Assembly: GCA_033816765.1 (NCBI GenBank)
Contig: CM066297.1
Coordinates: forward strand, 1,978,573-2,042,572
Direction of reading: 5' to 3'
Origin: Nothopassalora personata
Lineage: Eukaryota; Ascomycota; Dothideomycetes; Mycosphaerellales; Mycosphaerellaceae
Length of the DNA: 64,000 bases
The notes under the pieces were generated by a model, which was not told the origin of the DNA, ran no database searches, and worked only from the letters and a program-made list of their open reading frames with translations. Below are positions 11,330 through 64,000 of the stretch, one piece after another. Position 1 is the stretch's first letter; each line of letters starts with the position of its first letter. The translations under genes were made by a program, and so were the position numbers.

Positions 11330-11400
11330 TAGGCCTTATTCTTGCGATAGTAGAGCATAACCAGGTCGTCTACGTAGAAGAAGAACATAACCTTATCGTT
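11330..11400 (-). pseudogene. Copia reverse transcriptase core (YVDDLV)
   Basis: Minus-strand translation gives FFFYVDDLVMLYYRK, the catalytic YVDD box of Copia-type reverse transcriptases. The surrounding sequence is coding-like but carries stops. Further downstream, near 10650-10830, the RNase H segment reads SVLDASYG, SGWIFMLFGGLVDYKAS and ITKSLTEAELLSL, typical of Copia RNase H. This fixes family and orientation. Confidence 0.85.
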
Positions 11401-14400: not shown

Positions 14401-15692
14401 GCGCCTATTACGGTTCAATACGCCTAGTAAGCGTTTACTATTATCGCCTAAGTAGTAATTAATAAAGTGCTTCTAGCACTTCTTCTACTACTTAGAGCGC
14501 TAATCCTTTAATAGACGCTTCTTAGGGTTAACTACATCGCATAAATAGAGGTTCTTATAATAACTCTCCTTAGGCTCGCCGGTAATGTTCTAGTAGCCGC
14601 TTAGCTTATTACTACTCTTATTATCCTTATTGCCACGGTTACGGCTCTTGTCGCCGCGGCTGCGGCTACGCGTGTTATTATTGTTCCTACCCCCTATGCC
14701 TACTATAGGTGCTAGGGTCGGTAGGACTTCTAGAGGATCGTGTTCGGCTAATAGCTCGCCTACGAAGGTTATAAAGACTAATCGACCGCTGTTAGTAACT
14801 AGGGTAGTATCGCGTATCTATTCGAGGTATCGCTTAGTAAGTTTACTAAGAGAGAGCTTATTACGCTTCTACTCGTTATACAGTAATGCTCTATAGGTAG
14901 GAGCTTACTTCTACTATATTGCGAGCAAGAAGTGTCGTACTAGGTCTCCTTACTTAGCGTAGTTGCAATCTAGCATCTTAGTCTATAATACTAGCTAGTC
15001 TAAGCACTAGTCGTTAATCCTTCGGGCTTAGCTCTTCTAAAGCCTATTTAGCTCTAGTGTAAGTTGTCGCTTACGCAGTATGTCGTCTAGTCTATACTAT
15101 GTCTTTAGAGCCTAGTACTTGCCTCTAAGAGTGCGTTTCCTATGCATAAGCTCTTAGCCTAGCTCCGTAGTAGTACGGATTAGGTAGGTAACTAGTTTAG
15201 ACCTTACTGCGGTAAAGATGTTATATATCCGCTACCTACGCTTAGCGTCCGACTAACGGAGCTTAATAAGCTCTTTGTCTGCCGCCGTAGCGTCTTTAGC
15301 AGTGTATGCTAATTGGATCTATTCGAACGTTAAGAACACCGGCTCTACTAGCTCGGCGATAGTGTCGTTCGGATCTACATACTTCTAGATGTTTAGAGAC
15401 TTAGCGTAGAGCTCTAACTAACGGTTAAACTTATCCTATTAGTTATAACTCTTAAGAACGATAGTAGCGTGCGGCAAAGTACCGGTACTACCGGGTGTCT
15501 CGGTAGTCGCTATAACGGTGTTAATAGGCCTAATGAAAGTTCCTATAGGTCCACTAGGGTTACTACACTGCTATGTAATGGTTATTAATGGGATAATGAT
15601 AGATCCTACTGGTTTTTAATAACGATGCAAAATCTGCTCTAGGGCTTCGTTTTATGTAGCGAACGTTAGTAAGCGCCTATCGGGCTTATAAC

Positions 15693-15898
15693 TATTACGT
15701 TATAAGTGGTTAGAAGTCATAAAATAGGCTTATAAAGGTGTTTTAAAAGCAGATAGTAGATTGCATGTGTCTAAGCTAGAATTGAAGGGGCTGCTTATAA
15801 AAAGGCTGTAGGTGACTAATTAATGTTACCTAATTCTTAGCGGCTACTACCTTAGGTTTAATTAGGCTACAGCGCCGGTGCACGCTTAGATCGTGACA
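15693..15898 (-). repeat. Copia LTR, right (5' LTR of the element)
   Basis: Same length and sequence class as 1605-1810. It ends in CGTGACA and is followed by TAAGG at 15899-15903. The mature transcript would run leftwards from here. Confidence 0.85.
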
Positions 15899-15903
15899 TA
15901 AGG

Positions 15904-16140
15904 AGCCTAGCGAGTCTAACGAGTCTAGCAATAGTTTATTTAAGGCTGTCGAGGGTGTTTTAACTACTTCTAGCGAGGCTAGCGAGTCTAGTACTCGCCC
16001 TACTAATAATATATTAACTCGCTTAGCCGCGGCGGAGGATCGTATTTAGTAATTAGAGGGTACTATTAGCCGCTTAATTGAATTTATTAGCGGTCTACTA
16101 GGTAGCGAGTTAGTTACTAAATTTCGCTCTTAGTAATAAT
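15904..16140 (+). pseudogene. Transposon ORF with Zn2Cys6-like cysteine array, 3' part
   Basis: Continuation of the 1088-1599 frame beyond the Copia insertion. It reads GAG CCT AGC GAG.. (EPSESNESSNSLFK), then a Ser/Thr-rich linker and a leucine-rich helix-like stretch (NILTRLAAAEDRI, LEGTISRLIEFISG). It ends in several stops around 16130. The helix following a zinc-cluster-like array recalls the linker and dimerisation helix of fungal binuclear-cluster proteins, but that is inference. Confidence 0.5.
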
Positions 16141-16299
16141 ATAATATTAAGTAGTCTACCTCCTATCTATATACTACGAGTCTATACTTCCCTCTACTTT
16201 TTCGGTCTTAGCTACCTCGTAGATAGCTTAATAACAAGCCTATTTCTCGGTGCCTTTATACGCTAGTTATCGTTAGGTAGACTCTAAAGTAATAGCTAC

Positions 16300-17755
16300 G
16301 AGTCTAGCTACGAGTCTAGCTATGTAATTATCGAAGCACTAGTTGCTACTATAGACTCGCTTAAGGCACTAGTTACTACTATAGTCTTACTTAAGGACTC
16401 CTTCTTAATCTCTCTAATTTGACTCGTAGCTAGACTCGTACGCTCTTCCTTTACCTTCTTAACCGATACTTCGCTAGCTAACGTACTTACTAGCTTATTG
16501 CCTAAACCTTTCCCTATAAACACTAAATTCTACTATCGAGAGGGGGCTCTAAACCCCGTTAGCTACGGAGACGAAGACGAAGAGGATTAAGGGCTACTAG
16601 CTATAAGATTAATATACTCTAGAGACTCGGCGATTAGAGTTACAGTATGTCGATACGGTAAGCTACGACTCGCTAGACGCTTCTCGCTCTAGCTTACTAC
16701 ACTCGCTAAACGAGAAGTAGCCTAACTCGCTATAGTAGCCTAGCGAGCAATGCCCTAATCCGCTAGACGTACTATAGTACTCGCTACTATACTCGCTCGC
16801 TAGTCCTTAAGCTTACGCTCGCGTCGGCGGTCTACGTCCTTTATAAGTTCGCTAAGACTAGCTAAGGACTCGTTACTACTCGAGTCCTCTACTACTCCTC
16901 GTCTATATAGATTGTTTAAGGCTCCGCGACCTTAGTTAACCTAATACGTGACGTTAACTAGTACTTCTCGCCTATCCTTCGCGTTCTAGACACCCTTAGT
17001 ATACGGTATTAATATGTCCTCGAGATCTCGCTCTCGTAGGCTTAATTTGCTTAGAAGAATAGGTGCATTATCTTTAGTAGCCTTTACGAAGAGGAAGGGC
17101 GGTATAGTATAAGGACGTGTAAGCTATAGGCCTAGCTTATCCGCGCCTTCTTAAAAGACGAGGTTATAAAGCTAGGTTATTGTATCTACTACTTTAGCTA
17201 AAGACGACTCGTAGCGAGTCTATCGTCCGGTAATTTGCTACGCGCTAAGGAGCTTATGCGGCTAATACTCCTATGTCTTAAGGTCCCCCTTACGTTTAAT
17301 AGTAAACGGCACCTTATATAGCTTAACGGATATTATTAGGCTAGGTCCCCTAGGCGGTTAAGATAGCTTTTTAGCTTTGCCCTAGACTAACGAGATAGGA
17401 ATACTTGTACTACGAGCCTTAATAACACTAGTCCGTAGCCCTAAGTAGCGCTCGACAACGGGTTAATTCTAGCATTACTAAGCTAGCGAATATAAGTCTA
17501 CTTATTGCGAGCGAGTATCTTATTAGCCCGACTATAGCTACTCGCTACGAGTAATGTATAAAGACCGTATCTAGTAGTGCCGTTTAGTTTCGAAGGGGTC
17601 TCGGTACTAGGAATCGGTAATAAGGGTAAAGGCGGACTCGTTACGGACTCGCTAGGCTCGATAAAGGCTAGTTTAGGTATACTACATTTACTACACCTTA
17701 GTAGATAGCCGTAGACCTCGCTATAAACTAGAGAAGTCTTTACTGACTTATACAT
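16300..17755 (-). pseudogene. Unrecognised minus-strand ORF remnant of the DNA transposon
   Basis: Minus-strand open pieces persist: residues such as MYKSVKTSLVYSEVYGYLL with LLRCSKCSIPKLAF at 17498-17755, then VPFTIKRKGDLKT, GADKLGL and KATKDNAPILLSKLSLRERD further left, and a Ser/Lys-rich stretch at 16320-16523. Stops are mostly TAG. It may be the C-terminal continuation of the transposase or a separate accessory gene. No family recognised. Confidence 0.4.
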
Positions 17756-17759
17756 GTAA

Positions 17760-18175
17760 AGATCGTCCTAAGTTAGAGCTAATATAATGTTAGAAGTAGT
17801 AGGAAAAGACTCGTAGGAAAAAGGACGTAGGACGTAGACTCGTTACTATATAACCTATAATAGCTTACCGGCTTAAGCAAACAAGTCTATTGTTCGTTCC
17901 GTTAGCTCTAATCCGTTAAGGCGAGTAGGCGGTGTGTACTTAGCGAGTCCCCCTCTATCTCGGAGATATTACGTAGTCTCGTTTCGTAGATACTAATAGG
18001 CGTAGACATACAATTTCCTAGGGCCTAGGCTAGGGCCGGCCTCGCTACCGTCTATTGTTAATAGATAGCTAGTAGTAGCAAGCTTCTTATTAACCTACTC
18101 TAGCGTTAGAGGCGGTAAGTATATAGTAAGGTCTATAAGGTATTAGCTATAGGATTTGTAGACTCGGTTAAGTAG
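17760..18175 (-). pseudogene. Transposase, C-terminal part (left of the Gypsy-2 insertion)
   Basis: When Gypsy-2 and one copy of AAGTA are removed, the minus-strand frame coming from 25504 continues without a shift into 18175. There it reads LNRVYKSYS, YLIDLTIYLPPLTLE, VNKKLATTSYLLTIDG and SEAGPSLGPRKLYVYAY, with TAG stops where Gln would stand. I infer that it is the C-terminal domain of the integrase-like transposase. Confidence 0.6.
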
Positions 18176-18180
18176 AAGTA

Positions 18181-18615
18181 TGTTACGGTTCGGTCCAAAC
18201 GGCAGCCCCGACTAGACACACGAAACACTAATCACTTAGAAACACGTGATACTAATTATCTAGACGCACGTGACACTAATCACTTAGAAACACGTGATAC
18301 TAATTATCTAGACGCACGTAACACTAATCACTTCACGGACTAATCAGTGTGATTAGTATACTCAGTAGGACTAATTAAGGTAATTATACTAAGCTATAGG
18401 CTCTACGCCGCGAATCTCCTTTGTATTTAGGAACGCTAGAAACCCTTATAGTTCTAATGCGTTCAACTTATGTTACTATCTCACTAATTGGAATACAACT
18501 CTTATTCCTATTATTCATCTTCGCTTAGCTTACTTTAGCCTCTCTAAAGAATAATACCGCTACGTGACTTAACTTATCTCTCTTTTAAGACTAGCCCTAG
18601 AACGAGACAATAACA
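18181..18615 (+). repeat. Gypsy-2 5' LTR with 48-bp tandem duplication
   Basis: 435 bp against 386-387 bp in the other copies. The extra length is one additional 48-bp unit in U3: 18225-18272 and 18273-18320 are near-identical units beginning ACACTAATCACTTAG. RIP-type changes relative to the unmutated copy at 24418 (CTGATCA to CTAATCA or CTAATTA) run throughout. Confidence 0.9.
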
Positions 18616-18789
18616 CTTTAAACGCCCTTAGGATAAGCGCTACTTAAGCAGCTAGTAGGGGAACACCCGCCCCTAGCGAAGTAGGAAGCATCCGCCGTGC
18701 GCTACTATAATAGACCACTACGAAGGACGATAAGTCTAATGACGATAACGAGCCTACTCTAAGGAAGAACGACGTTAAGGCTACTAAGC

Positions 18790-19565
18790 TAGACCTCTTC
18801 TATAGAGACAGGGCTAAGTTCGACGACTAGATCAATTAGATAGATATGTATCTTATGTTCAACCTAGTCGATGCCGATAAAAGAACTATATTCGCTATTA
18901 CGTACCTTCGCGGAAGTGCGTAGAACTAGATTAAACCTTACCTTAAGGAATACCTTAAAGGTATAGGACGATTAGACCCTACTAGAATGTTTAGGAGCTA
19001 CACTCTCTTTAAAGATAAGATGAAATCAATCTTTAGAACCTCGAACGAAGTCTAACAGGCTATACGAATCATTCAACACCTAAAGTAGAAGACGTCTACT
19101 TTAGAGTATGCAGCCAAATTCGAAGAATACGGACAAATTACCGGATAGGACCAGACGGCGTTAATAACTATATTCCGACGTGGACTTAAAGACTCCGTTA
19201 AGGACGAGTTAATAAGATACGGGGGACGGATTACTAACCTCAAAGAGCTAATAAAGGCGTCGATTAACATCGATAACTAGCTCTAGGAACGACACTAGGA
19301 GAAGAGATACGACTCTAAAGTAGGAGGAATAGTAGGATACGCTCCGGACCGTAGACCCTTAGGAGGATACGTTGCGAAGGGAGAATTCTTACAACAAAGC
19401 CAGCCCTACTATAGACCACAGCTAATAGAACTAGACGTTTCCTAACGAGGACGGAAGATCGACAAGAGTAGGGGCCACGGAAAGCCCTTTAAAGGAAAAG
19501 GAAAACTTACATACTATGCCTATAGTAAGGAAGGCCACATAGCGCGGGATTGCCGCGGTAAAAAT
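18790..19565 (+). pseudogene. Gypsy-2 gag with zinc knuckle
   Basis: The translation reads IDMYLMFNLVDADKRTIFAI, then a retrotransposon-gag-like stretch (MFRSYTLFKDKMKSIF, LEYAAKFEEYGQITG, IFRRGLKDSVKDELIR). At 19512 a knuckle reads YYAYSKEGHIARDCRGK, with two Cys codons changed to Tyr (TGC/TGT to TAC/TAT). Confidence 0.8.
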
Positions 19566-20739
19566 ATAGTGCGCCGCGAGCAATTTAATATAATACAACC
19601 CCGAACTAGTAAATCTAAGAGCAGCGTTGGATCTCGAGGAGATACCGACTATACTCGGAGAGTAGAGGAGAGAGCTAACAACAGAAGCACGACGCCTCTC
19701 CTAGACCCCTTAGAAGGACGAGGAGGATACTATAGGCAGCAAATAGTGGTTATTCTATTTAATACGAAGAACTAACTACGACAGTTTAACATAATGACAC
19801 GAAGAGTCGACTACGAGACCGAATCCGAGTCTCGAAATAGTTATAGAAGCCTTTATTAGCGATTCTATTACTAAGACTCGTGTCAAATCTACTACGCCGC
19901 GAAATCGGGCGTAGGGTATTAGCCTTAGCAACTACGAGGAACCCTAGGAGCGACGCATAGGCAAAACGCTACGCTTAGAGAAGTGGACATCGATAAATCC
20001 TACTTTAACGAAGATAGAAGCGATAAAGAAAATCAGGACCTAGGATAGAACGGATCATGGTCACTAGAACCATAGGAAGAAAGTTAAGAAACTACCGGGC
20101 TAGATACTATCGAGGAAGAACAGGATCCGGAAGAATTAAGCGAAGAAGATTCCTCCGAAGGAGAAGAGAGCGACACTAACGACGACAACGAACAACTTAC
20201 CTTCACGGTAGATGCACCTAAGAAACTATACGACATAATCATCTACCTATAAAGAAGGCACGAGGAATTCCTACCTAAGATAGGTAGACGAAGGAAGCTA
20301 CATTCCATTAAGTTTAATAAGACACTCGACACCCTACGAGGCATAGCCTAGGGATACCTACTTATGGAAACAACCGAGAATCTAGCAAATACCGTTATAG
20401 AACGACTACCGATAGGAAGCCGAATAATAGGAACCGGATATCTTACACCGTTAGGAACATTTATATCGAATGAATTACGCAATATAGTACAACACGCACG
20501 CGTACTCTACTTAGAAACGTAGAAGATCTAGGAACGTAATAGACTATAAGTATAGACATAGGGCAACGGGCTATAGGTTCTAGCCGAAGCCTCTAGGCAC
20601 GAAGCATAGCGAACTACATACTATTCGGGAAAAGGATTAGCTCCCTAGGAATAAGCGACCGGAGGGAGTTATGCAATACTTAGGCTTATGTATCGACATT
20701 AAACACAGTTTTCTAGACATAAGCAATCGTTAACGGACA

Positions 20740-22640
20740 CAAGACTAGTGTTATAATCGACTTAGGAGTAGCGGGGAATTTTATCTCCGAGTCTTTCATA
20801 AGAAGAAACAGGTTAGCTACCCTAAAGAAGAAATAGGGTTACGAGTTAATCGCGGTAAACGGATTATCGTTACCTAGCGTAGAATAGGAGACGATACCAT
20901 TGCCACTAGCTATCCAATAGCACTACGAGAATATTACCTTAGATGTTACTAATATAGACAGTTATAACATAGTATTAGGTATGCCTTAGTTAAGAAAGCA
21001 CAATCTAGTAATCAACTAGAGAAGAGGAGTACTTACATTTAGGGAATGCGATTGCGTTGTCGACATTTAGCCTACGTAGTAGTAGCGTTCACTAGTAGAT
21101 AAGGTAAGGAAATAGCTAAACGAGATATAGCTTACGCCGACTAGAAGGATAAAAGAACTACCTTCGACCGGGATAGACACTAGCGTGGGGCCGCCGGGTT
21201 ACGAAGTCACTAGAAGTAATAGAAGTAACGCACCATCGAAGAATACTAACATCTTAGAGTTAAGTATTCCTAAGGAGTATCGTAAGTGGTCGCGACTCTT
21301 TAAAGAGGAGAGAGGTAAAACCGCCTTACCTAAGCACCGCCTATAGGATTACAAGATTAACATTTAGCTAGGGAAAGAGCCTCTATAGAGACCCCTATAT
21401 TAAATGTCTAAGAAAGAGCTATAGACCCTACGAGAATAGCTAAAGGAGAAGCTAGCTAAAGGATAGATAAGAAGATCTACCTTAAGTGCAGGAACTCTAT
21501 ACATGTTCGTTCTAAAAGCAAACGGGAAGTTACGACTCGTATAAGACTATAGGAAGTTAAACGAGATCACGATTAAGAACCGATACCCGCTACCTAACAT
21601 CGAAGAAGCATAGGACAGATTAACCGGATCGGACTAGTACACGAAGATTGACCTACGAGATGCCTTCTATGCTATACGAATAGTAGAAGGAGAAGAATGG
21701 AAAACCGCTTTTAGAATAAGATACGGACTCTACGAATTCTTAGTTATGCTAATAGGATTAACTAACGCACCCGCATCCTACTAGGACCTTGTAAACGAAA
21801 CACTTAGAGACCTACTCGACGTATGCGTTATCGCCTATATAGACGACATACTAGTCTACATAAAAGGATCCCTATAGGAACACATAAAACAAGTCTAGAA
21901 CGTCTTCGAACGACTTACGCAATTAGGATTCAAGACGGCACCCGAGAAATGCGAATTCCATAAGAAAGAAGTCAAATTCTTAGGCTTTATTATTAGCACT
22001 ACAGGGATAACGATCGACCCTACGAAGACACAGTCAATTAGAGAGTAGCTAGAACTAAAAACAGTTAAGGACGTACAATTATTCCTTAGACTAGCGAACT
22101 ACAACCGGAAATTCATTAAGGACTACGCGAAAATAGCAGCACTAATAACGATGCTTACGAGAAAGGACGTTACTTAGAAATAGGGAAAGGAATAGACTAA
22201 AGCATTTAAGAAACTTAAGGAACAATGCGCTTTAGCCCCTACGCTTCGATTATTCGATAGTAGTAAGGAAGTCTATATCGAGACCGATGCGTCTAATATA
22301 GCAATAGGCGCGTGTCTAACGTAGACACACGATAGGTAGAGACACCTAGTAGCCTATTACTCCCGGAAAATGACTACAGCGGAATAGAACTACGACATCT
22401 ATAACAAAGAGCTTCTAGCTATTGTTGCTACTATGCAACATTAGAGAGTATATGTCGAGGGCCTACCGAAGTTAACGATTCTTTCTAACTACAAGAATCT
22501 TACGTACTTTACGACGACGAAAGAACTTACTCGAAGGCAAGCCCGCTGGTCGGAGCTGCTGGGACAGTATAAGTTCGAAATTAAATATACTCCAGGACGA
22601 GAGAATGGCCGCGCCGACGCGCTAAGCCAAAGAAGCGACT
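20740..22640 (+). pseudogene. Gypsy-2 protease, reverse transcriptase and RNase H
   Basis: The protease box reads TSVIIDLGVAGNFIS, so the D-S/T-G motif is now D-L-G. Reverse transcriptase blocks are [44 protein letters not shown] and VIAYIDDILVYI. RNase H reads VYIETDASNIAIGACLTQ, then LVAYYSRKM and YDIYNKELLAIV, ending GRENGRADALSQRSDY. TAG stops interrupt every domain. Confidence 0.9.
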
Positions 22641-22779
22641 ATATAGAAGAAAAAGAACCAGTGCAACATAAGATATTAAAGACAAACCCCGACGGAAGTC
22701 TTAGTGCCAACATAAGAGAATTCAATAACATCGTACGGATATTAGGCGATAGGGACGAACAATTCCCTATATCGCAAGG

Positions 22780-24030
22780 AAAATACTAAGTACCTAAGCA
22801 TCGAGAAGAAGAATACATACGACAACATTACGACGGATTAACTTATAGACACCCTAGAACTTTAAAAACAATGGACCTAATATAGCGCAGCTTCTTATTC
22901 CTACAAATGAGACTTAAGGTATTACGCTACATTAAACAATGCGTACACTACTAACGAAACAAGGCTACGAGACATGCAAAATACGGTTACCTACAGTTTA
23001 GGACACTACCGACGAAACCATAGGACGAAGTTACAATAGACTTTATTACGAAACTCCTACCGTTAAGAGATTAAGTTACGAAACAACTATACGATATAAT
23101 ACTAGTCATAGTTAATAGACTTACGAAATACGCACACTTCATTCCTGCATTAGAAACGTACAATGTAGAGCAGCTCGGATACCTCGTACTAGATAGACTT
23201 ATCCGATACTACGGATTCCCTTAAGCGTTTATAACGGATAGAGATAAGCTATTTACATTAAACTACTAGAAGACGCTTATAGGAACGATCGGAATCAAAT
23301 ACAAGCTGTTAATAGCATATTATCCGGAAACAGACGGACAAACCGAAAGGATAAATTAAACGCTAGAACAATACCTACGACACTACATCAATTATACATA
23401 AGACAACTAGGTCTTATTACTGCCAATAGCGCAGATTGCACTAAACAACTACAAATTAGAGACAACTTTAACGACACCATTTTATACGAACTTTAGTAAA
23501 GATCCTAACCTATTTAGAACACCTAGATCCTACCTATAAGCCGAAAGAGTAATCGTGACGACGGATACTCTTAAGGAAGTGCATAAAGAAACACGTAAGG
23601 CGATCGAAGATATATAATAAAAACTGTCTCGACAACGGTAGGACACGAGAAAAATAGCACCTCTACTAAAAGAGGGGGATAAGGTCTATCTCCTTACAAA
23701 AAACTTAAGAACAAGAAGACAGACCAAGAAACTAGATTACGTTAAGGTCGGACCATTTTTTATCGACAAAGTCATAGGACTAGTTAACTACTGCCTACGA
23801 CTACTACTAGACGCAAGAATCCACCTAGTCTTCTATATCTCTAAGTTAGAACCCGTAGACGCCGAAACACCCTGCTAGGAGAGCTTCTATTTCGAACCGG
23901 AAGCAGAAAACGAATTCGAAGTCGAAAGAATCCTAGACAAGAAAGGTTAGCGATACCTTGTTAAATAGAAAGGATACGACGAATCAGAAAATACCTAGGA
24001 ACTAGAAAAGAACCTACAAAACTATTAACA
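22780..24030 (+). pseudogene. Gypsy-2 integrase and chromodomain
   Basis: Integrase blocks: DEVTIDFITKLLPLRD, VNRLTKYAHFIP, AFITDRDKLF and YYPETDGQTERIN. After the linker a chromodomain reads EFEVERILDKKG, stop, RYLVK, stop, KGYDESENT, stop, ELEKNLQN near 23906-24010. The stops replace Gln or Trp codons. Confidence 0.9.
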
Positions 24031-24417
24031 AAAGATCCGAGAATATTATAAGAAAAACAAAGACCTATAAGTCAACTAGTAGGGAGTAGTTCGGGTACCT
24101 CCTAGAACTCGTTACCGAGACCCTTAATAGCACCCTATGTGCCTAGTAACAAGTTGAGAACTAGACCCTTACAAGGGATATCCGAAGGAAGTAAAGAAGC
24201 CTCTTCTATCTCCTACTCCTCGATCTCCCTTTCCTTAACGGAAATCGCCTCCTCGGCACAACGATCTACTAGATCTATCTACTAACGTAAGCGCTCCTCG
24301 CGCGCGCGAGCAATCTTTAGATCCTCGAGAGCCTTCTTATAAACCCGCATCGCCTCCTCCTAAGCGGACCGAGACTCCTGGATTTTCTAACGAAGACGAG
24401 CCTTCTCCTCTACTAAC

Positions 24418-24804
24418 TGTTACGGTTCGGTCCAAACGGCAGCCCCGACCAGACACACGAAACACTGATCACTTGGAAACACGTGATACTGATCATCCAG
24501 ACGCACGTGACACTGATCACTTCACGGACTGATCAGTGTGATCAGTATGCTCAGTGGGACTGATCAAGGTGATCATACTGAGCCATAGGCTCTACGCCGC
24601 GAATCTCCTTTGTATTTAGGAACGCTAGAAACCCTTATGGTTCTGATGCGTTCAACTCATGTTACTATCTCACTGATTGGAATACAACTCTTATTCCTAT
24701 CATTTATCTTCGCTCAGCTTGCTTCAGCCTCTCCAAAGAATAATACCGCCACGTGACTTGACTTATCTCTCTTTTGAGACTAGCCCTGGAACGAGACAAT
24801 AACA
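24418..24804 (+). mobile_element. Solo LTR of the Gypsy-2 family, not RIP-mutated
   Basis: 387 bp, TGTTACGG..CAATAACA, flanked by its own perfect duplication CTAAC (24413-24417 and 24805-24809), so it is an independent insertion into the 3' part of Gypsy-2 and not that element's 3' LTR. It retains CTGATCA, CCAGAC and CAGCTTGC motifs that are CTAATTA, CTAGAC and TAGCTTAC in the LTRs around it. It is thus the unmutated reference for this family. Confidence 0.9.
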
Positions 24805-25112
24805 CTAACCTCTTAAACTCCGACTAAGTTACTCTTACATCGCACCTTTAGCCGCGACAAAGACACTTACTACACTTCCCGGAACGAATGTGCACCTTGT
24901 ATACGCGACTATGCTTTTCATACGTTAAGCATTTCTTAACTATAACTTCTCCCGCGGATTTAACGAACTCGTAGAGACGGCGGCGACGGATAGTGCTAGA
25001 AGGGCGTTAGTAGATAGGCATCGTAAAGGGAAGAAGCTATACGCGAATACATAGAGGATACCGTTCGTTATAAGTAAGCTCAAGGGACTAAGCTAGGCTA
25101 GAAGGGGGATAG

Positions 25113-25498
25113 TGTTACAGTTCGGTCTAAACGGTAGCCCAACTAGACATACAAAACACTAATTACTTAGAAACACGTAATACTAATTATCTAGACGCAC
25201 GTAACACTAATCACTTCACGGACTGATTAGTGTGATTAGTATGCTTAGTAGGACTGATTAAGGTGATTATACTAAGCTATAGGCTCTACGCCGCGAATCT
25301 CCTTTATATTTAGGAACGCTAGAAACCCTTATAGTTCTAATGCGTTCAACTTATGTTACTATCTCACTAATTGGAATACAACTCTTATTCCTATCATTTA
25401 TCTTCGCTTAGCTTACTTTAGCCTCTCTAAAGAATAATACCACTACGTAACTTAACTTATCTCTCTTTTAAGACTAGCCCTAGAACGAGACAATAACA
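25113..25498 (+). repeat. Gypsy-2 3' LTR
   Basis: 386 bp, TGTTACAG..CAATAACA, strongly RIP-mutated, followed by AAGTA. The 300 bases between the solo LTR and this LTR are the remaining internal region of Gypsy-2. Confidence 0.9.
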
Positions 25499-25503
25499 AA
25501 GTA

Positions 25504-26700
25504 GTAGCGAGTCCGCACTTAAGCTATAGCGAGTCCGTACTTAAGCTATAGCGAGTCCTCCCTTAGCTAAGCTAGGACTCGTAGCTATAGTAGCGCTAGA
25601 CTCGCTACTATAGACACCCCGGATTAACGTACCGTACTAATCGACTCGCTCCTTCTACTAGCGAAGCTCCTCGTCCTTAGGGTTAAGTAGATACCTACAT
25701 AGTCGTACTCCTTTTAACTCTAGGTAGTTATATAGGATATCCGGTATGCCGTTTATATGCGATTCTAGGTTATAATGACGGATACGATAGCGGTTCTACT
25801 CGTTAACGAACGATAATACAACACTTCGAAGGATTAGAATATAGATAGTAGCGAATGCTATCCTATCTACGGCTAATGCTTCCTTAAAGAGTCCTATTGT
25901 AATATACTAATTAAAGAGGTCTCTCTAGCGATTGAATATAGCCTTAGTACCCTCGCCCTACTAGTGTTCGATAGTTTAATTGCCCTTACTTAAGGTGTAC
26001 TAGAAGGCCTTATCGAACGTAAGTAGATTACTAGCGAGTCGCTCTCGGACTCGTAGATAGGCATCGGCTAGCATAGGCGTCTTAACGCCCTAATTAGATC
26101 GTACGCGATTTAGCACCCTACTACCGTAATGTATTACTCTAACGTATTAAGTAAATATAGAGAACTTCGTCTTCGCTATAGGCCCTATGTAGTACTAGAT
26201 AACCCGCCGAGAGTAGACGTTAATATAAGCGTAGATCTATATCTTAAAGCGCTCGTATTTTAGAAAGGCATCGATTAACTAGACGTCGTTAGGACCTTCT
26301 ACTTTTAGCCTCGTATACCGCGGTGTTATAGGGTCTCGCATTATAGGATTGTAAGAGACAAAAGGGACAGGGTTAATCGTACGAGCGAGTGTCCTAATAC
26401 GGTCGCTAATAAAGTTAGCAAGTCTAGTCTACGAGTCTATAGACACCGAGTCTATCCTACCGTCTAATAATATAATGACTCTTACGTAGCTCTCTTACTA
26501 GCTTACGATAGCCCTAGTCTTGCTAATAGCTACTGCTTATAACTTCCTAAAGGACTCGCTATATCTTAGGCTCTATAGCTAGAGCTTATTCTTTACTAAG
26601 ACTACGCTTTAATCTAATACCTCTTCGTAGCTCTTAATACTAGCGAAGGGTAAGGTCGAATCTATCGAGGCGGAGGATAGCATAAGACTCGCTATCGTCG
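25504..26700 (-). pseudogene. Integrase-like (rve, DDE) transposase of the DNA transposon
   Basis: One minus-strand frame reads YTRLKVEGPNDV, LIDAFLKYERFKI, IYAYINVYSRRVI, YYIGP, then TIEH near 25966-25977, then IAFATIYILILRSVVLSFV, NRYRIRHYNLESHINGIPDI and LNPKDEELR. This matches the fungal integrase-core family (W-x-x-D..I-D-x-Y-S-R..T-I-E-x-W-W-G..N-x-H-R-I-R). The catalytic residues are D near 26271, the second D mutated to N near 26224 (GAC to AAC, TpG to TpA), and E in TIEH. Many TAG and TAA stops. The gene is interrupted by Gypsy-2. Confidence 0.75.
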
Positions 26701-47336: not shown

Positions 47337-49796
47337 TGAATGGTCAGCTGCGGATGTATCTTTGCTGTTGCCTGCATCGATCATGACTTTCTGCCTGCGG
47401 CACTCATTATGAGCATTCCGACGTCATGATCTCCTTGCTGTTCTGAGTTGTCCAACTCTTAAGATCACAACTGCGTCGTCCAGCGATTCCTCGTGTCAAT
47501 GTCGACTTCGCATCAGCAAAGCCATAGATGATCAATTGCTGTCGGCATGGCAAGCCGACACAGCCATCAGCAGTCGACGTCGGCCTGCACACGTTTCCTT
47601 AGCTCGAACGTCTGTTATAAACCGCACCACGCTCCAACCATAAGATCGACCTGTTTCATGTTATCATGGGTCGCTCACGCGCACGCGACAACGACGGGGC
47701 GCCACGATAGTCGTCATCACGCGTAGGGTACCTGCGTAGCGGCCGCGGACACGACGGTGGCCAACCACGACATCGGTGATCAAGCTGCCACAGCTGATTT
47801 GGGAGCAGCGTGACGTACAATTCTGGAAGAGTGCCTCGAGAGTTGCCTTGTTGGGCCGCGGCAAATGCCAAGGCCGTTGGTAAGTCAGGTTAGCTCAGCC
47901 CTCCGGAAAGTTGACGATGCGTGCGCCACGAAGTAAAACTTTTGTTATGCTGGGCGCTCTGCAGATGAGCCGCAGAACAATATGGCAGAGTTCCTTGGCA
48001 GGTTGTGAGCAATAAAGCTTGTCGAGGAACAGTCTTGTCAGCGCGCTCTTTGCCGTCGCGGACCGACCATTTGTCCGCCTGCAGTTCTGAGGTCTCTCAC
48101 GCGGTCCACGTGCACGCTTGTTGGGCTAAGAGGTGGTGCGCAGCGGATGATCCTTGCTGCGAGCGAGGAACAGGCGCAGAAGCAGGTCTGCAGAAAATGC
48201 TGCTGCAGGGCTTTCTAGGGTCATGCCCACCAGAAGTTGGACGATAGCCACGACATCGATCGATCAATGTCCGGGACTGTCAAGCTGTTGGAGAAGTGAT
48301 GTTGGCATGCCTGTACTGTAGATGTCACGCTAGAGCTCGGGTATTTGAGCTTTGAAGCCGGTTTTATGCGAGGAAGCATGACGCTGATCTCATCCGAGCT
48401 AGCAAGCGAAGCAGTGAAAGCATCCCAGCATCTCATTTACCGAACAGATCGGATGTCGCTCTGCTCAAGATGATCTCTGAGATCGGTGTGACGAGATGCC
48501 ATTGGTTCTGCCGTATGTTGAAATCGTTGTCGTTGTGCCGGTAGAAATTCGGTACACCGAGATCGGAGGAGGCTCGTGTACGGTAGTTCCATAGCAGGCG
48601 CCGGGGACAGTTCTTGTCCACCATAGCTGTAGCCACAGTGTGTAGCTGACGTATACGGTACGCTTGGCGAGGATTGGTAACCGGGCGCCACAGAGCCGAA
48701 CAGATGCGGAGGACAGCCAATTGAGCTGCAGGATTACCGCAATGGCACGGGTACACATCGAAGTATGAAAGTGGTGTGAAAGGCCAAGCGGATGCACACC
48801 AGCTGAAGACACGATCGATGGAGCGTACAGTATGAAAGTGCCAGACGTGAACAGCTGAAGTGAACGACTGGCGCTGCGGATCAACAACAGCCGTCCGTGG
48901 AGTAGAGTAGACCCTCTCATCAGCTGTTCGGAAAGGCAGTGCCTGCACAGCTGGAGCCAGCCTCGAATGCCAATCATGACGTGAAAGTGCTCGGCTGTCG
49001 TGTGGCGTATAACGGGTAGACGTGCACCCTCGAGCGGGAGCCTCACCCCAGAGCTTCGCATGGTGCGCTGAGCCTCGAGGATCGTGACTGCTACTGTAGT
49101 TCTAGGTCTGAATCATTTCCACTGCGGAGCACACCGGGCGACTCGGGATTTGCGAGACGCCACTCCAAGGCTTACCACGAGAAGCTGTGCTAGCAGGTAA
49201 CTAACGGCCGTTTGAATATCTGCACACCAGCAGCCGCCGCTGCTCTGTGGCTGCGCTGCGCGGTGACTGCGCGGTGACTTGCTACAACGACAGCAGAGGC
49301 CGCAACATTCTTGCTCTGCTTCCTTCTTTCCGCCTTGCAGCCATCGATTGCATCGGCCGTAGTGGGGGACATAATTCGGCTCTGCGACACATCCAGAAGA
49401 ACCCGCCACAACGCGACACAACCGCTCCGCAGTGATCGGATCTCACCATTTGTGAAATGCGCTCGAGGGCCCTGGAGTTGCATTGGAGTATCACGCTTGG
49501 GGCGCATCTTGGGCATTTGCTGGTGATCTAGGCTTTGGTGCGTCACATCTGCTTTTATAGTGCTTCGTGCTGCGACCCACCCGCGCGCTCAACATTCACT
49601 CGCCCTGCTGTGCGCCACGTCTGTGGATCTTGCTTTCTGCAGAGCCGCATGGTCTTTGCGATCACATGCACGTAGGGCTGGTGTTGACTGGGAGCCGTTG
49701 AAGCACGCGTTGGAACATGGCGACCGCGTACTGACCAGTGCGCTCAGACATCTCGAACCGTAATCTGTTAGAGCATTGTGATATCGCCTGAGCCTC
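47337..49796. other. Long intergenic region upstream of the C2H2 regulator, about 2.5 kb
   Basis: No domain recognised on either strand. Three minus-strand frames stay open together around 48433-49061, which reflects few stop codons by composition and not a gene. The region may hold a long leader or regulatory sequence for the transcription factor at 49797. Confidence 0.5.
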
Positions 49797-51830
49797 ATGG
49801 CAGCGACCACGCAAGCGACCACGCCCTCCTACCCTGCTGAGCCCTTCGCCTCCCTCGAGGGTGCGCCGCGTACACCGACATCTCTATCGTCAACCGCCGG
49901 GCCGACCTCGACGAGTGCAGGACAGGATAACCCCAACCTGCTACGCGCACAATCACAGCAACCGACAGATCCGACGAGGCTCAGCTTGTCGCCAAAGTCG
50001 TTGGAGAAGACGCGCCTGTCGCCGGGCAGGCTCGCGGCTTTACCACTGACCGGCGCTGCGGCGATGGCGGAGATGAAGCGAAGGAAACAGCAGGCGCAGG
50101 CACAGGCACAGGCACAACAGCAAGCAGAGCAGACCTCGCGACAAACGAGTCCCAATCCTGCAGCACAAGCGTTGCATTCATTAATGGGCGCTGGAGGAAT
50201 GAGCCGAGCAGCAGATGCGCCTGCGCCAGCCAAGCTCAGCGAGCCTTTGCGAACAGTGGCCGAGCACATTCATTTACCTGATAATAATGCGCAAAGCGAC
50301 ACCGACAACCAAATCAGTCCTGTCAGTCTGGGCAGTGTTGGCACCTTGAACAGTTCGGCAGGCGCAGCGGCGGGCAGTAACAACGCCGCCCTGACAGCCA
50401 CAGCGAACGACCAGAATGCTGCCTCAGGCCAGCAGTTTGTGGCTGAGCCCGACGAAATGAACGATGCAAACCACTACCAGGAAAATAACGGCAATCTCGC
50501 GGTGCCCGATCAACAAGGCGACAAAGCAATATCGTTTTCCTATCCAGGTCCGCCGCCACAACAGGATGATGACCAGCAGGGAGGACCATCGCGCGGCATG
50601 AGCCTTCCAGGATACGGTCAAGGAAGTCCAAAGTCACCCGCCTCAAACAAGCGACACAAATGCCCTTACTGCTCCACGGACTTTACTCGCCACCATAACC
50701 TCAAAAGCCACTTGCTGACCCATAGTCAAGAAAAGCCGTATGTTTGTCAGACCTGCCAAGCGCGGTTTCGCCGACTGCACGACCTCAAGCGCCACACGAA
50801 ACTTCACACAGGCGAACGGCCACACACGTGCGACAAGTGCGGTCGGCGTTTTGCGCGTGGAGACGCGCTCGCCAGACATAATAAAGGGCCTGGTGGATGT
50901 GCTGGGCGACGTTCGAGCTTTGGCGGCGAGGACGACTTTGGTGACGACGGCGGCATGGAAGGAATAGAGTATGACGACGACGAAGGAACCGACGAACATG
51001 GTCGACGCGTAAGCGAACCGAATCGGAAACGCCAGCACCTTGAAACGCCTCGAGACCCGAACAGGCAAATCTACCGCCAACACTCAAGGACGTACCCGCC
51101 AGCGCCTACGCAAGCCATGCGCGGGAGCATGGGTCCTCCGCAGGTTGTCCATCCAGGCTCCAGCAGTGCCACATCGCCGCGAGAGATGTCCGGCCAGCCA
51201 AGTCCTGCTGGAGGCTCGTCCGTTGGTTCCTACTATGGCTCGGGACAAGTGTTCGCAGAGCCAGGCGTGATGACACAGTCGCCGAAGCCTCTTTCACCTG
51301 GTCAACCACCTGATCAACAGCATCTTAGCGTTGGTGAACAAGGCGGGTTGCGCAATCGGTCTACAAGCTTAACCACGCACTTTCAACAAGCTCATTTTGG
51401 CCGTCAACCAGGTAGTGGCGGTGGTAGAACTCCGCCTATGCCAAATGCTCAATTCCCACCAGGTCACGCAACACCTTCCAACATCCTACCTCCACTAGGT
51501 GCTGGCAATCCGGCACGGCAGCCATCATCCATGCCCGGCGCGCCTAACATGCACGGACATCAGCAGGCCCCTACTGCTATCGTCAATTCCAATCCCGGGA
51601 GTCATTCCAGCCATGGTCGATCTTCGGGGAGCAGCATGCGCGACATCGCACAGAATCCCGAAGACATTTGGACCTATGTTCGGCAGCTCGAGTCGCGCTT
51701 TAGTAGAATGCAAGACGAGTACGAGCTACGGATCAGCCGCATGCAGGACGAACTGATCTCGCTTAAGGGGCAAGTCAGTCAAATGTCTAACGCCGGAAGC
51801 TATACCAGCAACATGGACCGCCCTTATTGA
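49797..51830 (+). CDS. C2H2 zinc-finger transcription factor with C-terminal coiled coil
   Basis: 677 residues, one exon, start MAATTQATTPSYPAEPFASL. The N-terminal third is Gln/Ser/Pro-rich with an (AQ)n run at about 99-107. Three fingers lie at about 286-375: KCPYCSTDFTRHHNLKSH, VCQTCQARFRRLHDLKRH and TCDKCGRRFARGDALARH, followed by NKGPGGCAGRRSS. An acidic patch follows (EGIEYDDDEG). A basic, disordered stretch ends in a helix at about 623-665 (VRQLESRFSRMQDEYELRIS), probably a dimerisation coiled coil. The finger linkers (TGERPH, SQEKPY) are standard. It is a sequence-specific nuclear regulator; I do not assign an orthologue, although Crz1-like or stress regulators have similar finger sets. 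Confidence 0.85.
   Translation: MAATTQATTPSYPAEPFASLEGAPRTPTSLSSTAGPTSTSAGQDNPNLLRAQSQQPTDPTRLSLSPKSLEKTRLSPGRLAALPLTGAAAMAEMKRRKQQAQAQAQAQQQAEQTSRQTSPNPAAQALHSLMGAGGMSRAADAPAPAKLSEPLRTVAEHIHLPDNNAQSDTDNQISPVSLGSVGTLNSSAGAAAGSNNAALTATANDQNAASGQQFVAEPDEMNDANHYQENNGNLAVPDQQGDKAISFSYPGPPPQQDDDQQGGPSRGMSLPGYGQGSPKSPASNKRHKCPYCSTDFTRHHNLKSHLLTHSQEKPYVCQTCQARFRRLHDLKRHTKLHTGERPHTCDKCGRRFARGDALARHNKGPGGCAGRRSSFGGEDDFGDDGGMEGIEYDDDEGTDEHGRRVSEPNRKRQHLETPRDPNRQIYRQHSRTYPPAPTQAMRGSMGPPQVVHPGSSSATSPREMSGQPSPAGGSSVGSYYGSGQVFAEPGVMTQSPKPLSPGQPPDQQHLSVGEQGGLRNRSTSLTTHFQQAHFGRQPGSGGGRTPPMPNAQFPPGHATPSNILPPLGAGNPARQPSSMPGAPNMHGHQQAPTAIVNSNPGSHSSHGRSSGSSMRDIAQNPEDIWTYVRQLESRFSRMQDEYELRISRMQDELISLKGQVSQMSNAGSYTSNMDRPY
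50090..50130 (+). repeat. Short GGCACA microsatellite within the transcription factor gene
   Basis: A short hexamer-type repeat (GCGCAGGCACAGGCACAGGC and on) encodes the Ala-Gln run. Confidence 0.6.
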
Positions 51831-54402: not shown

Positions 54403-56049
54403 CTAATCGTACAAACCATCGCTGTCGCTATCGTCACTTGGCGCTGGTGCTTGACCAGTGGGTGGCTGAGGAGGAACAGCTTGGCCAACGTCTCCTTGTG
54501 CTGGGGCAGGGTTGACGAGTTGCCCAAAGGCATTAGGGTAAGGGCCCATTGGTTGCGGCACGTATTGTACCTGTGGCTGAGCCTGTTGCTGCCCCTGTGG
54601 TTGGGCCTGTGGTCGCGGTGCTATGGCTACCAATGGCCACGTTGGCGTATATGGGCGCAATGGGTATGGCCAGTAGGGCCCAGACTTGGCGGGGAAAGGC
54701 TGTGGGTTGGTTTTGCTGTAGGGCAGATACCCTCGTCCAAAGTTCAGCTCGTATTCGGTGTTCTTCTGCAGTGCCCTCTCGAGTTTGTCAGTCTTCTTGG
54801 AGACGTGCACCAGGAAGGCGGGCTTATTTGGGGTTAGTGGCTTTGGACCATCGTTCCAGACCGTGATTGATGATACGACCAGCCGTTCATCCCAAGTGCT
54901 TCGGTGATTCAACAGGAAGTATACGACGCTTTTGATGTCTGGTGCAGCCAGCAGCATCTGGTAGCATACTGATCCGATCGGGAACGTGATATGGTTCGGC
55001 CAAGCGGGAAAGTCACTGATGGCTTGCATGTCTAACACTGTGCTCACAGCATGCAGAGTCTCCGTATTTGGGAAGTCTTTGTTGATGTGGAACCATTTCG
55101 GAGGCATGTCTTTGACAAATTTGAGGGCCTCGATGTCGGTATCATGTCTGACAGGTCGAATGTTATGAAAAGATTGAAGATACTCCACCGGAGCTATGTC
55201 GTGCCAGTCTCGAGGGTCAGGGACCTGAGGCCTCGCTCCAGACGCCGAGAGGATAGGTTGGGCAGGATTTGGCTCGAACTGCGCCCAGGGAGCACCGTCA
55301 TCAGTCCAGACAACGGCACGCTGCGAAGGACTGTACATCCCTACGTATTCTGCGCAGGTTGGGTTGACGGGATCCTTGTGCCAGGTCCGCTTATGTACCC
55401 ATTCCGAAGGAGCTACTGATAAAGGTGTGTCGCCCTTCCAAGTACAAGCCAGCCCGAGTGTGGCGCACTGATTGCAGGTGTGATGTACTTCGTTACACTT
55501 CTTCTTCCGCTTGACGCAAGTCTTACAGCCGCCCTTCGAGTAGAGCCTTCCCTTCGTGGTTGGGACTGGCTCGAGATCATCTTCCAGACCTTCAACAGTG
55601 GTCAGACCTGCCATGAACTGGATCTTGGGAAGGCCGTGACTGACCGGGAGTATTGTGTTTGTCCACTTTGCAGCCACAGCACGCGCTTTATCAATGCCGC
55701 GCGTAGCTGGGCGTGCCGGGACAGGATTACCTGCACCATCCGCATCTCGAGCCAGCATCCACATCGTCATCTTAGCCCCGTCGCTCCTCAACTGCTGGAC
55801 TTTTTGTGCTTCTTTAGGAGTGCCCGTAAAGCCGGGAATGTGGAAGCGCTTCGACAGCTTCGTTGTATCCCCCTGATCATCAAAAGCTGTGCCATTGACG
55901 TAGGCGATGGCGGATTTGAGGTTTGGGGCGAGCTGCTGGGTCGACGACCCGCTCTCTAGGGAGCTGTTCACAGGCACTGCAATAGCAGTGACCAATCCCA
56001 CAAGCGGCAGTGGGATGAAGTAGATGAAGCGCATCTTGTGGTATGTCAA
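54403..56049 (-). CDS. Secreted-family protein with an internal Zn2Cys6 motif
   Basis: 548 residues, one exon, start MTYHKMRFIYF at 56049 (the next Met is residue 6). Residues 6-25 look like a signal peptide with an AIA-type cleavage site, and a Kex2-like KR lies at 67-68. Residues 175-202 are C-x2-C-x6-C-x6-C-x2-C-x6-C with KRKKK between the second and third cysteines, a canonical fungal binuclear zinc cluster. Blocks shared with the gene at 52435 lie on both sides of the cluster (about 93-133 and 235-417). Thus the cluster sits inside the family fold and does not mark a mis-called start. The C-terminus is Gln/Pro-rich (QPQGQQQAQPQVQYV) and ends acidic. An alternative start at Met146 (55614) would give an ordinary N-terminal zinc-cluster factor of 403 residues. 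Confidence 0.75.
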   Translation of the reverse strand: MTYHKMRFIYFIPLPLVGLVTAIAVPVNSSLESGSSTQQLAPNLKSAIAYVNGTAFDDQGDTTKLSKRFHIPGFTGTPKEAQKVQQLRSDGAKMTMWMLARDADGAGNPVPARPATRGIDKARAVAAKWTNTILPVSHGLPKIQFMAGLTTVEGLEDDLEPVPTTKGRLYSKGGCKTCVKRKKKCNEVHHTCNQCATLGLACTWKGDTPLSVAPSEWVHKRTWHKDPVNPTCAEYVGMYSPSQRAVVWTDDGAPWAQFEPNPAQPILSASGARPQVPDPRDWHDIAPVEYLQSFHNIRPVRHDTDIEALKFVKDMPPKWFHINKDFPNTETLHAVSTVLDMQAISDFPAWPNHITFPIGSVCYQMLLAAPDIKSVVYFLLNHRSTWDERLVVSSITVWNDGPKPLTPNKPAFLVHVSKKTDKLERALQKNTEYELNFGRGYLPYSKTNPQPFPAKSGPYWPYPLRPYTPTWPLVAIAPRPQAQPQGQQQAQPQVQYVPQPMGPYPNAFGQLVNPAPAQGDVGQAVPPQPPTGQAPAPSDDSDSDGLYD

Positions 56050-56756
56050 GCGCTTCGTGGATCGGTAGGTGTGACTAGGGTGAGGGGTTGGATAGGCTTG
56101 GTGGATGGGAAATAACTTGGATCAGTGCAGGAAGAACCTTTTCTCGAAGCGGATACTGTTTCTGAATGCTGGATGTGGAGGATAGAAGAGCAGGTTTCAA
56201 GCTGGAGAGAAGAAATAGTTGATCTTGCCAACAGCAAATCAGCCCCTGAGTATGTGAGCATGCCATTGCCATTGAAGCAATGCGTTTGAAGGCGTGACTA
56301 AGTGACTGCTGTGTTGTGAGGGTATCAGCCATTGCGTGACGTGGTTGCCTATTGGTGGAAACGCACCAAGTATGATCGTGGCAAGCAAACAATCATACCG
56401 TGGACGCAAACACGTACAATAGGACTGGAAGTCACGCGGTCAGAGGCCGTCTTCGCTGCTGATGCTGCTGCATTGAAAGCTCATTGGGATCAAGCAGTGC
56501 GCTGTCGACGCGCTACCTCTAAAGATTGCCCCAACCACATGGCTGCTCAGCTCATAAGGGATGGAATCTGAATGACAGGTCGGACGTTTCTTCCAATTTG
56601 AGGATCATGTGCGTAAAATTTGAAGCTCGGGCCTTAACCACGAAGCTAGTCAGTGAATTTCCTCAGACCTCTCTGGCATTTAATAGCCACTTGAAGTTCA
56701 CGCCATTGGCTTCTTTATCCCATCAGACTCAATAACATAGAACATACACTCACATC
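56050..56756. other. Divergent intergenic region, about 700 bp
   Basis: Lies between the starts of the Zn2Cys6-bearing gene (minus) and the small hypothetical gene (plus). Nothing further recognised. Confidence 0.5.
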
Positions 56757-62522: not shown

Positions 62523-63421
62523 ATCCTACTGCTGTGAATCATCTCAACGGCGCAGAGAAGGCTCCACGGGGAAGACGCATGACACAGAACGCAAGCTGAA
62601 GCTGGCCATGATGCCGGTCGCGATGAAGACAGTCATCGAAGACCGCGGCAATCGACTGTTGCGATTGCATGGGTGACACAACGATTGCCTGAATGGCCAG
62701 CACCTCGCATAAGAGCATAGTGGCCCATTGGTGTGGACATTATGCAGGATGTTTTATTAGCAACATTGTCTCGCGCTCCTGCACAGGCGATTGCAAAGGC
62801 CACAAAGCACGCGGCGGGCGATGAGCTGACCGCAAGGCTCCATGTACAGATAGACTTTTGACGATGGGGAACGAGAGCATGCACAGCTATAGGTACAGCC
62901 GAAAGTAACACTTCGATTAAGGTCCCTTTGCAGGGGCATTTGAGTCCGTCATGGAACGACGGAAGACAAGCAGCCAGCAGCAGCTGAGTGCAGGGGCATT
63001 TGATTCCGTTGTGGAACGACGGAAGACAAGCAGCCAGCATCATCTCAGCTGCTGCTCGAACCTGGTAAGATTACGATTGGGAGCGAAAATCGTAGTCCTC
63101 CTCGCCTCCGAAAAGTTGTGGCGTGATATCTGTGCGGATGGCTTGCAGCTATCGTGCTTGGCAACAGGGCGGCATCGAAGCTCGAACTTGCGACACCACC
63201 ACTCTGTATTACGCTGCCAGGCCATGACAGCCCGGGGCAGGCGGACCGATACCATTGATAAGCGAAGTTGCTGCTTGATGCTGTGGTCCAAGTTTGAATA
63301 GCAACCTTCCGGCACGGGCACGCATGGACATGTAAAGCGATCGCCGGAGCCCACGAGCAGAAGTTTACCCACCCATCCATATCTTGACTTCTGTAAACCA
63401 GATACTACAGGCTGTTCTCTC
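62523..63421. other. Intergenic, about 900 bp, with a tandem repeat
   Basis: 3' region of the uS13m gene and promoter of the HET gene. Contains a two-copy 60-bp tandem repeat (annotated separately). No gene recognised. Confidence 0.5.
62931..63050 (+). repeat. Tandem 60-bp duplication
   Basis: Units 62931-62990 and 62991-63050 both begin CAGGGGCATTTGA and share GGAACGACGGAAGACAAGCA, with a handful of differences (mostly in TCCGTCATGG against TCCGTTGTGG and at the 3' ends). Confidence 0.9.
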
Positions 63422-64000
63422 ATGGCGACTTATCAAGATGAGTGGGCGAACATGTCCGGCTCGGAACCACCATATGTCAGCTTGGCGGCTGGCTACAATA
63501 TTCGTCTTGTGCAGTTGCTGCCTGGCAACGATGAAGATGTGTGCATACGGCTCTGGATTCACGGACTTGGCCATGCTCCTCCGTATGAAGCCATATCCTA
63601 CGTATGGGGAAATCCCGATGACACAGTTCTCATCAAATGCAACGGCAAGCAACTTCCAATCACAAGGAACCTTGACGCTGCTCTACGTCGCATGAGAAAT
63701 CAAGACAGGTCCCGGATGCTTTGGGCCGATGCGATTTGTATTGACCAAGATCCCAAACCCGAGAATAAGGAGAAGGCTCACCACGTCAGTTTTATGGACA
63801 AGGTCTACCGCCGCGCTGATAGAGTCTTGGTCCACATGCCAACAGGTGCCAATACAAGGACTCATGAGGTAAGTATGCTTATCACAGAGCACAATGACCG
63901 CATAGAAGGCCGGCGCTTGCAAGACATGCCTCCTATCGCCGACGATGATCCCATCCTACAAGATGAGCGCTGGTCGTCGATTCGGGATCTATTGAAGTCA
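63422..64000 (+). CDS. HET-domain (heterokaryon incompatibility) protein, 3' end outside window
   Basis: Start MATYQDEWANMSGSEPPYVS. The HET domain begins at about residue 58 with the family blocks YEAISYVWGNPDD, then NLDAALRRMR and LWADAICIDQ, then VYRRADRVLVHMP. The frame is open to the window end at 193 residues. A GTAAGT near 63869 could be a donor, but the frame stays open through it. HET proteins trigger cell death or growth arrest on fusion of incompatible hyphae; many are fast-evolving. Only the N-terminal part is visible, so any C-terminal domain is unknown. Confidence 0.88.
   Translation, partial: MATYQDEWANMSGSEPPYVSLAAGYNIRLVQLLPGNDEDVCIRLWIHGLGHAPPYEAISYVWGNPDDTVLIKCNGKQLPITRNLDAALRRMRNQDRSRMLWADAICIDQDPKPENKEKAHHVSFMDKVYRRADRVLVHMPTGANTRTHEVSMLITEHNDRIEGRRLQDMPPIADDDPILQDERWSSIRDLLKS

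Follow-up and report, generated by a model that had tools for sequence, protein, structure and literature searches.

How does a Zn2Cys6 cluster come to sit inside a protein that begins like a secretory one, and does that beginning belong to the same protein? These questions are raised by P0001, a gene on the minus strand (54403..56034) of the window, by which we mean the whole 64,000-nucleotide stretch of Nothopassalora personata DNA analysed here. The gene was delineated from the ORF list, its translation and a full-length match to the Fulvia fulva protein P0003: within a minus-strand ORF that is uninterrupted from 54403 to 56121, a single exon codes for 543 amino acids at 56034-54406, followed by a TAG stop at 54405-54403. 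The initial annotation had placed the start at 56049; the frame is indeed open there, but the ATG, which encodes the sole methionine ahead of the hydrophobic stretch, lies five codons downstream, at 56034. The six cysteines it listed at 175, 178, 185, 192, 195 and 202 do have the spacing of a binuclear cluster, but each number is five too high, and its Met146 is Met141 (codon 55614-55612). In the corrected numbering, the cysteines of P0001 are residues 170, 173, 180, 187, 190 and 197, which form the cluster, together with 227 and 357. Structure prediction gave poor models (mean pLDDT 42.5 and 57.4), too weak to help.

The N-terminus, MRFIYFIPLPLVGLVTAIA, is of signal type: residues 1-19 (55978..56034, minus strand) contain a Kyte-Doolittle maximum of 2.27 over 13 residues and an A-x-A motif before the likely cleavage point, and are followed by a Kex2-type dibasic site, Lys62-Arg63 (55846..55851, minus strand). 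Both elements, already pointed out in the initial annotation, align with P0003, the one match returned by a protein search with P0001, in which the best 7995 candidates by common words were scored and further relatives may have been missed. P0003 is the hypothetical protein CLAFUW4_10244 of Fulvia fulva (Mycosphaerellaceae), 511 residues long, and covers 99% of the query at 32% identity (E = 9.7e-64). It starts with MRFIYFVPMPLVGLVAAVA, a sequence of the same type, so the hydrophobic start is conserved, and its Lys-Arg pair, within SKR, stands at the identical residue number; ELSKR also occurs in the paralogue L159.

The similarity between the two proteins runs from end to end and covers the start, the SKR site, the C-side block and the tail, by which we assign them to one family. 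Searched against the source genome, P0003 found as its two best matches the two halves of the P0001 gene (2.0e-36 and 1.2e-26): its residues 1-155 match at 40% identity, a block (E = 1.2e-26) that includes the N-side block of P0001 (residues 64-155; 55570..55845, minus strand), and its residues 182-510 match at 39%, a block that includes the C-side family block (residues 215-420; 54775..55392, minus strand). The cluster region is left unmatched between them, and the Pro/Gln-rich tail of P0001 with its acidic end (residues 421-543; 54406..54774, minus strand) is aligned to that of P0003. CLAFUW4_10244 is thus like P0001 in its signal-type start, SKR site, both blocks, proline-rich acidic tail and similar length, but has a short Gly/Ser/Pro-rich linker in place of the Zn2Cys6 module. 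The distance between two anchors common to both proteins is 91 residues in P0001 and 58 in P0003, a difference of 33 residues or 99 nt, with the proviso that this is one orthologue, seen as protein sequence alone, and that the cluster-coding stretch may have been spliced out of the Fulvia gene model. Since this cluster-less relative keeps the signal-type start, that N-terminus would belong to the same protein as the cluster, and P0003 is the strongest available argument that it does: it unites the signal-bearing part and the C-part in one protein, with no division of cluster and signal part into two genes. The earlier view that the start has not been mis-called is therefore borne out. From the look of its sequence and the conservation of its start, we infer that P0001 is of secretory type.

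The initial annotation had argued this point from the neighbouring paralogue P0002 (52435..53472, plus strand; 345 residues), which lacks the cluster and has a strongly hydrophobic N-terminus, stating that blocks common to the two flank the cluster on both sides. On the C side such a block is found (E = 2e-9), but on the N side no match was detected, even of profile against profile; the argument is carried by P0003 instead, because its two blocks match on either side of the cluster. With four queries, further family matches were found on C1 (two), C2, C8, C9, C11 and C12, all of them outside the cluster region, those on C2 (E 0.044) and C8 (E 0.024) being weak by themselves. Several of these paralogue frames have, by eye, hydrophobic starts of signal or signal-anchor type, and the member on C9 also has an SKR site. 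In a six-frame search, the cluster motif appeared in none of nine family stretches (eight from elsewhere and that of the neighbour). Since the neighbour and the paralogues are without it, a gain of the cluster in the P0001 lineage would be simpler than its repeated loss.

Among the family members, a 1536-residue frame on C12 (L022:351-4958, about 1062850-1067457) has a signal-type start and four tandem C-side family domains, with KR/RR sites in the stretches between them, an arrangement resembling that of a multi-domain precursor processed by Kex2, and is followed by further family-like fragments in other frames (L022:4974-6072). In the window itself, a C2H2 zinc-finger protein (49782-51827) lies directly upstream of the P0002/P0001 pair, and a frame with a HET (heterokaryon incompatibility) domain (63302-64000) is cut by the window end. 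Positions 10000-26000 have a GC content of 0.39-0.43, compared with 0.52-0.57 beyond 28 kb, and there are no frames of 200 or more residues between 605 and 27595; the former stretch has the appearance of an island rich in repeats and possibly affected by RIP.

The module itself comprises residues 166-199 (55438..55539, minus strand), has the spacing C-x2-C-x6-C-x6-C-x2-C-x6-C and is absent from P0003. We took as a Zn2Cys6 cluster six cysteines spaced C-x2-C-x6-C-x5-12-C-x2-C-x6-9-C with a score above the Pfam cut-off for Zn_clus (PF00172), and the match over residues 169-199 scores 24 bits, the cut-off being 21 (E = 4.3e-5), in agreement with the earlier reading of the six cysteines as a binuclear cluster. 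A scan of the genome with the same family, in which 150 of 169 candidates were scored and at least 112 places found, recovered P0001 at the same place (E = 1.1e-4), among the weaker entries of the list. Because of these two matches, a chance cysteine motif is unlikely.

For comparison we turned to the 111 other Zn_clus places, of which 100 stretches were fetched and 87 yielded a cluster by regular expression, leaving out the 13 fetched stretches without one and 11 further places. Between Cys2 and Cys3, P0001 reads VKRKKK, and positions C2+3, C2+4 and C3-1, which we take to be DNA contacts in Gal4-type structures, are basic. A frame on C7 at 494 kb (L003/L106) is like it in cysteine spacing, basic residues before Cys3 and the LGLAC end. 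P0001 departs from the set in three respects: Cys2 is followed by a non-basic residue (basic in 69 of the 87), Asn replaces Asp after Cys3 (Asp in 54), and the loop, NEVHHT, is without the proline that, usually and not universally, precedes Cys4 (at -1 or -2 in 79 of the 87). These three changes would lower the odds of ordinary DNA binding. A Pfam scan up to E = 1 returned Zn_clus and a sub-threshold Opy2 match only, hence no Fungal_trans (PF04082), and no dimerisation helix was seen by eye after the cluster; the missing proline and the failure to find Fungal_trans make the case against a standard DNA-binding role. P0001 thus differs from most fungal Zn2Cys6 proteins in its loop, in the lack of a detected Fungal_trans domain and in having a signal-type start ahead of its cluster, the first cysteine of which is residue 170. 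The forward position alone is no difference, as module position varies among the frames viewed and L004 likewise has its module around residue 175 of the open frame. Whether the module would be loaded with metal in the oxidising ER is uncertain. Two further frames of the scan contain paired clusters: a 255-residue frame on C10 at about 481 kb (L025:2017-2781) has two about 60 residues apart, with a frame downstream that resembles, by eye, the middle region of transcription factors, and a 437-residue frame on C5 at about 3.90 Mb (L026:2373-3683) has two together with what appear by eye to be two C2H2-type fingers.

The borders of the module offer a hint as to how it may have arrived. Two exact copies of an 8-bp sequence (coding strand: GAAGGGCG) flank the cluster as a direct repeat, the left one immediately ahead of the codon for the first cysteine (55530..55537, minus strand) and the right one immediately behind that for the last (55431..55438, minus strand); they are spaced 99 nt apart, precisely the difference in anchor distance from P0003. 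Across the coding sequences of P0001 and its neighbour, scanned at every third lag from 60 to 150 nt, repeats of at least 8 bp were found in 12 of 9238 windows, 3 of which are the observed repeat itself, and such repeats flank 2 of the 88 clusters compared, that of P0001 and one, L152, with 10 bp. For a short repeat noticed post hoc, this is moderate statistical support. The left copy, which encodes S-K-x-G before the first cysteine, may simply be part of the module, because other Zn2Cys6 modules begin in the same way ([ST][KR]x[GA] fits 14 of the 87). We read the arrangement as a putative short in-frame insertion with a target-site duplication or a microhomology junction. No near-identical donor is present among the 87 other clusters, the nearest, that of L003/L106 on C7, being 57% identical over 28 residues, compared with a median nearest-neighbour identity of 55% among the clusters of the genome, and the 151-nt cluster stretch, searched against the assembly DNA, matches itself alone. 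On these grounds, either the donor may be lost, foreign or among the Zn_clus places outside our comparison, or the event may be old. If it is old, the six intact cysteines and the open frame would suggest some constraint, which a single sequence can suggest but not prove to be selection. The recent exon fusion considered in the initial annotation is not supported in the strict sense, as the added residues are encoded within a single open frame, with no convincing introns on either side.

The cluster might still be removed from most of the protein made, if it lay in a stop-free stretch with a length divisible by three that the main, secreted isoform loses by splicing and a minor isoform keeps. 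An in-frame candidate of 111 nt, GTAAGA...TATCAG (55416..55526, minus strand), covers the cluster, and its donor and two acceptors (at 111 and 114 nt) would allow in-frame removal. In the closely examined part of one report on two isolates of Cladosporium (Fulvia) fulvum, intron retention predominates among alternatively spliced genes, and the presence of Zn_clus varies between isoforms in 78 and 74 of them (PMC11694984). But the 111 nt contain neither a CTRAY nor a CTNAN branch-point motif, whereas the best intron candidates of the paralogues L158 and L024 have GTRAGT and CTRAY, in a control that is small and biased, the candidates having been ranked partly by CTRAY (L160, L161 and L159 gave poorer candidates and L157 none). 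Splicing would also remove 37 residues, not the 33 by which P0003 is shorter between the anchors, and we hold this explanation to be decidedly unlikely. The candidate of L158, on C1 (L158:2158-2209), is a clean one (GTAAGT, CTRAY at -16, CAG) and lies in the linker, near the place of the P0001 cluster but not at it. Very unlikely, in our view, is a regulator of the fungus itself, started at Met141: such a protein would have 403 residues, with Met141 lying 29 residues ahead of the first cysteine and the Pro/Gln-rich tail with its acidic end serving as an activation region. In many zinc-cluster factors the cluster is near the N-terminus. However, Met141 has no counterpart in P0003 (LQVLQGLT against IQFMAGLT) and has T at -3, where Met1 has A, and since residues 1-140 are conserved with Fulvia, the long form would be the old one, for which the signal-type start argues against a nuclear location. 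That the arrangement is an assembly artefact or a chimaeric read is barely credible: a single genome was available, but neither border disturbs the reading frame, and with no second place for the 151-nt stretch in the assembly, no source of a mis-join was seen.

A more far-reaching proposal is that the mature protein enters host cells, where the basic Zn2Cys6 module would lead it to DNA. It is favoured by the union of a secretory-type start with a DNA-binding-type module, by the basic run KRKKK inside the cluster, and by relatives as few (1 and 2 matches) as in a fast-evolving family. There is a precedent in the rice-blast effectors MoHTR1 and MoHTR2 of Magnaporthe oryzae, which, in the part of the report considered here, were identified by a secretion signal and a DNA-binding domain, among 20 such proteins of which at least one is labelled a Zn2Cys6 transcription factor (IPR007219; PMC7672089). 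The statement that P0001 has no described counterpart was accordingly too strong, and the idea of joining a signal to a DNA-binding domain is not new, going by the same part of that source. MoHTR1 and MoHTR2 are like P0001 in carrying a secretion signal and a zinc DNA-binding domain in one protein, but theirs are C2H2 fingers, and experiments have demonstrated both the delivery of these effectors to nuclei and their DNA targets (PMC7672089, same part). Against a nuclear effector speak the missing loop proline, Zn_clus as the sole Pfam family above cut-off, the lack of a visible dimerisation helix, and a parent family in which nothing seen hints at nuclear function. We take IPR007219 to be the middle homology domain and not the Zn2Cys6 cluster itself. 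Neither an effector aimed at host nuclei nor a membrane-released regulator, both raised in the initial annotation, drew positive evidence from the sequence analysis, and we regard the effector as unlikely.

On balance, the in-frame insertion of a 33-residue Zn2Cys6 module into a fast-evolving secretory-family gene is the probable explanation, held with some but not high confidence. By this account, a module of 99 nt, starting with SKGGCKTC and ending with LGLAC, would have entered in frame the variable linker that joins the N-side block to the C-side block, in a family with Kex2 sites. One polypeptide would be read from the conserved start, enter the ER, lose its signal sequence and be cut after Lys62-Arg63, and the mature protein would be exported with an added finger, basic and metal-binding, set between the two original halves. 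The direction of change (gain, not loss) is inferred here, as are the secretion and cleavage of the protein, its zinc loading and any binding to nucleic acids. We consider P0001 best described as a putative lineage-specific insertion of a Zn2Cys6 module into a secretory-family gene, an unusual arrangement in which the module would most likely be an exported metal- or nucleic-acid-binding add-on, or a passenger that the protein tolerates; a role in regulating genes of the fungus itself is less likely.

It is doubtful that a gene of an established secretory family has here acquired, through a single small insertion in frame, the DNA-binding Zn2Cys6 module and thereby made its product an exported regulator acting on DNA, in host nuclei or outside the cell; were it true, a fungal transcription-factor domain would have been turned naturally into a part of the secretome. 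If the cluster is spliced out or an internal start is used, P0001 would be a secretory gene carrying a second, nuclear product. If it is translated and exported, P0001 would represent a domain gained in one step, with a cluster-less homologue at hand for comparison, and could show whether a nuclear DNA-binding module works, or takes on a metal-binding role, in the secretory pathway.
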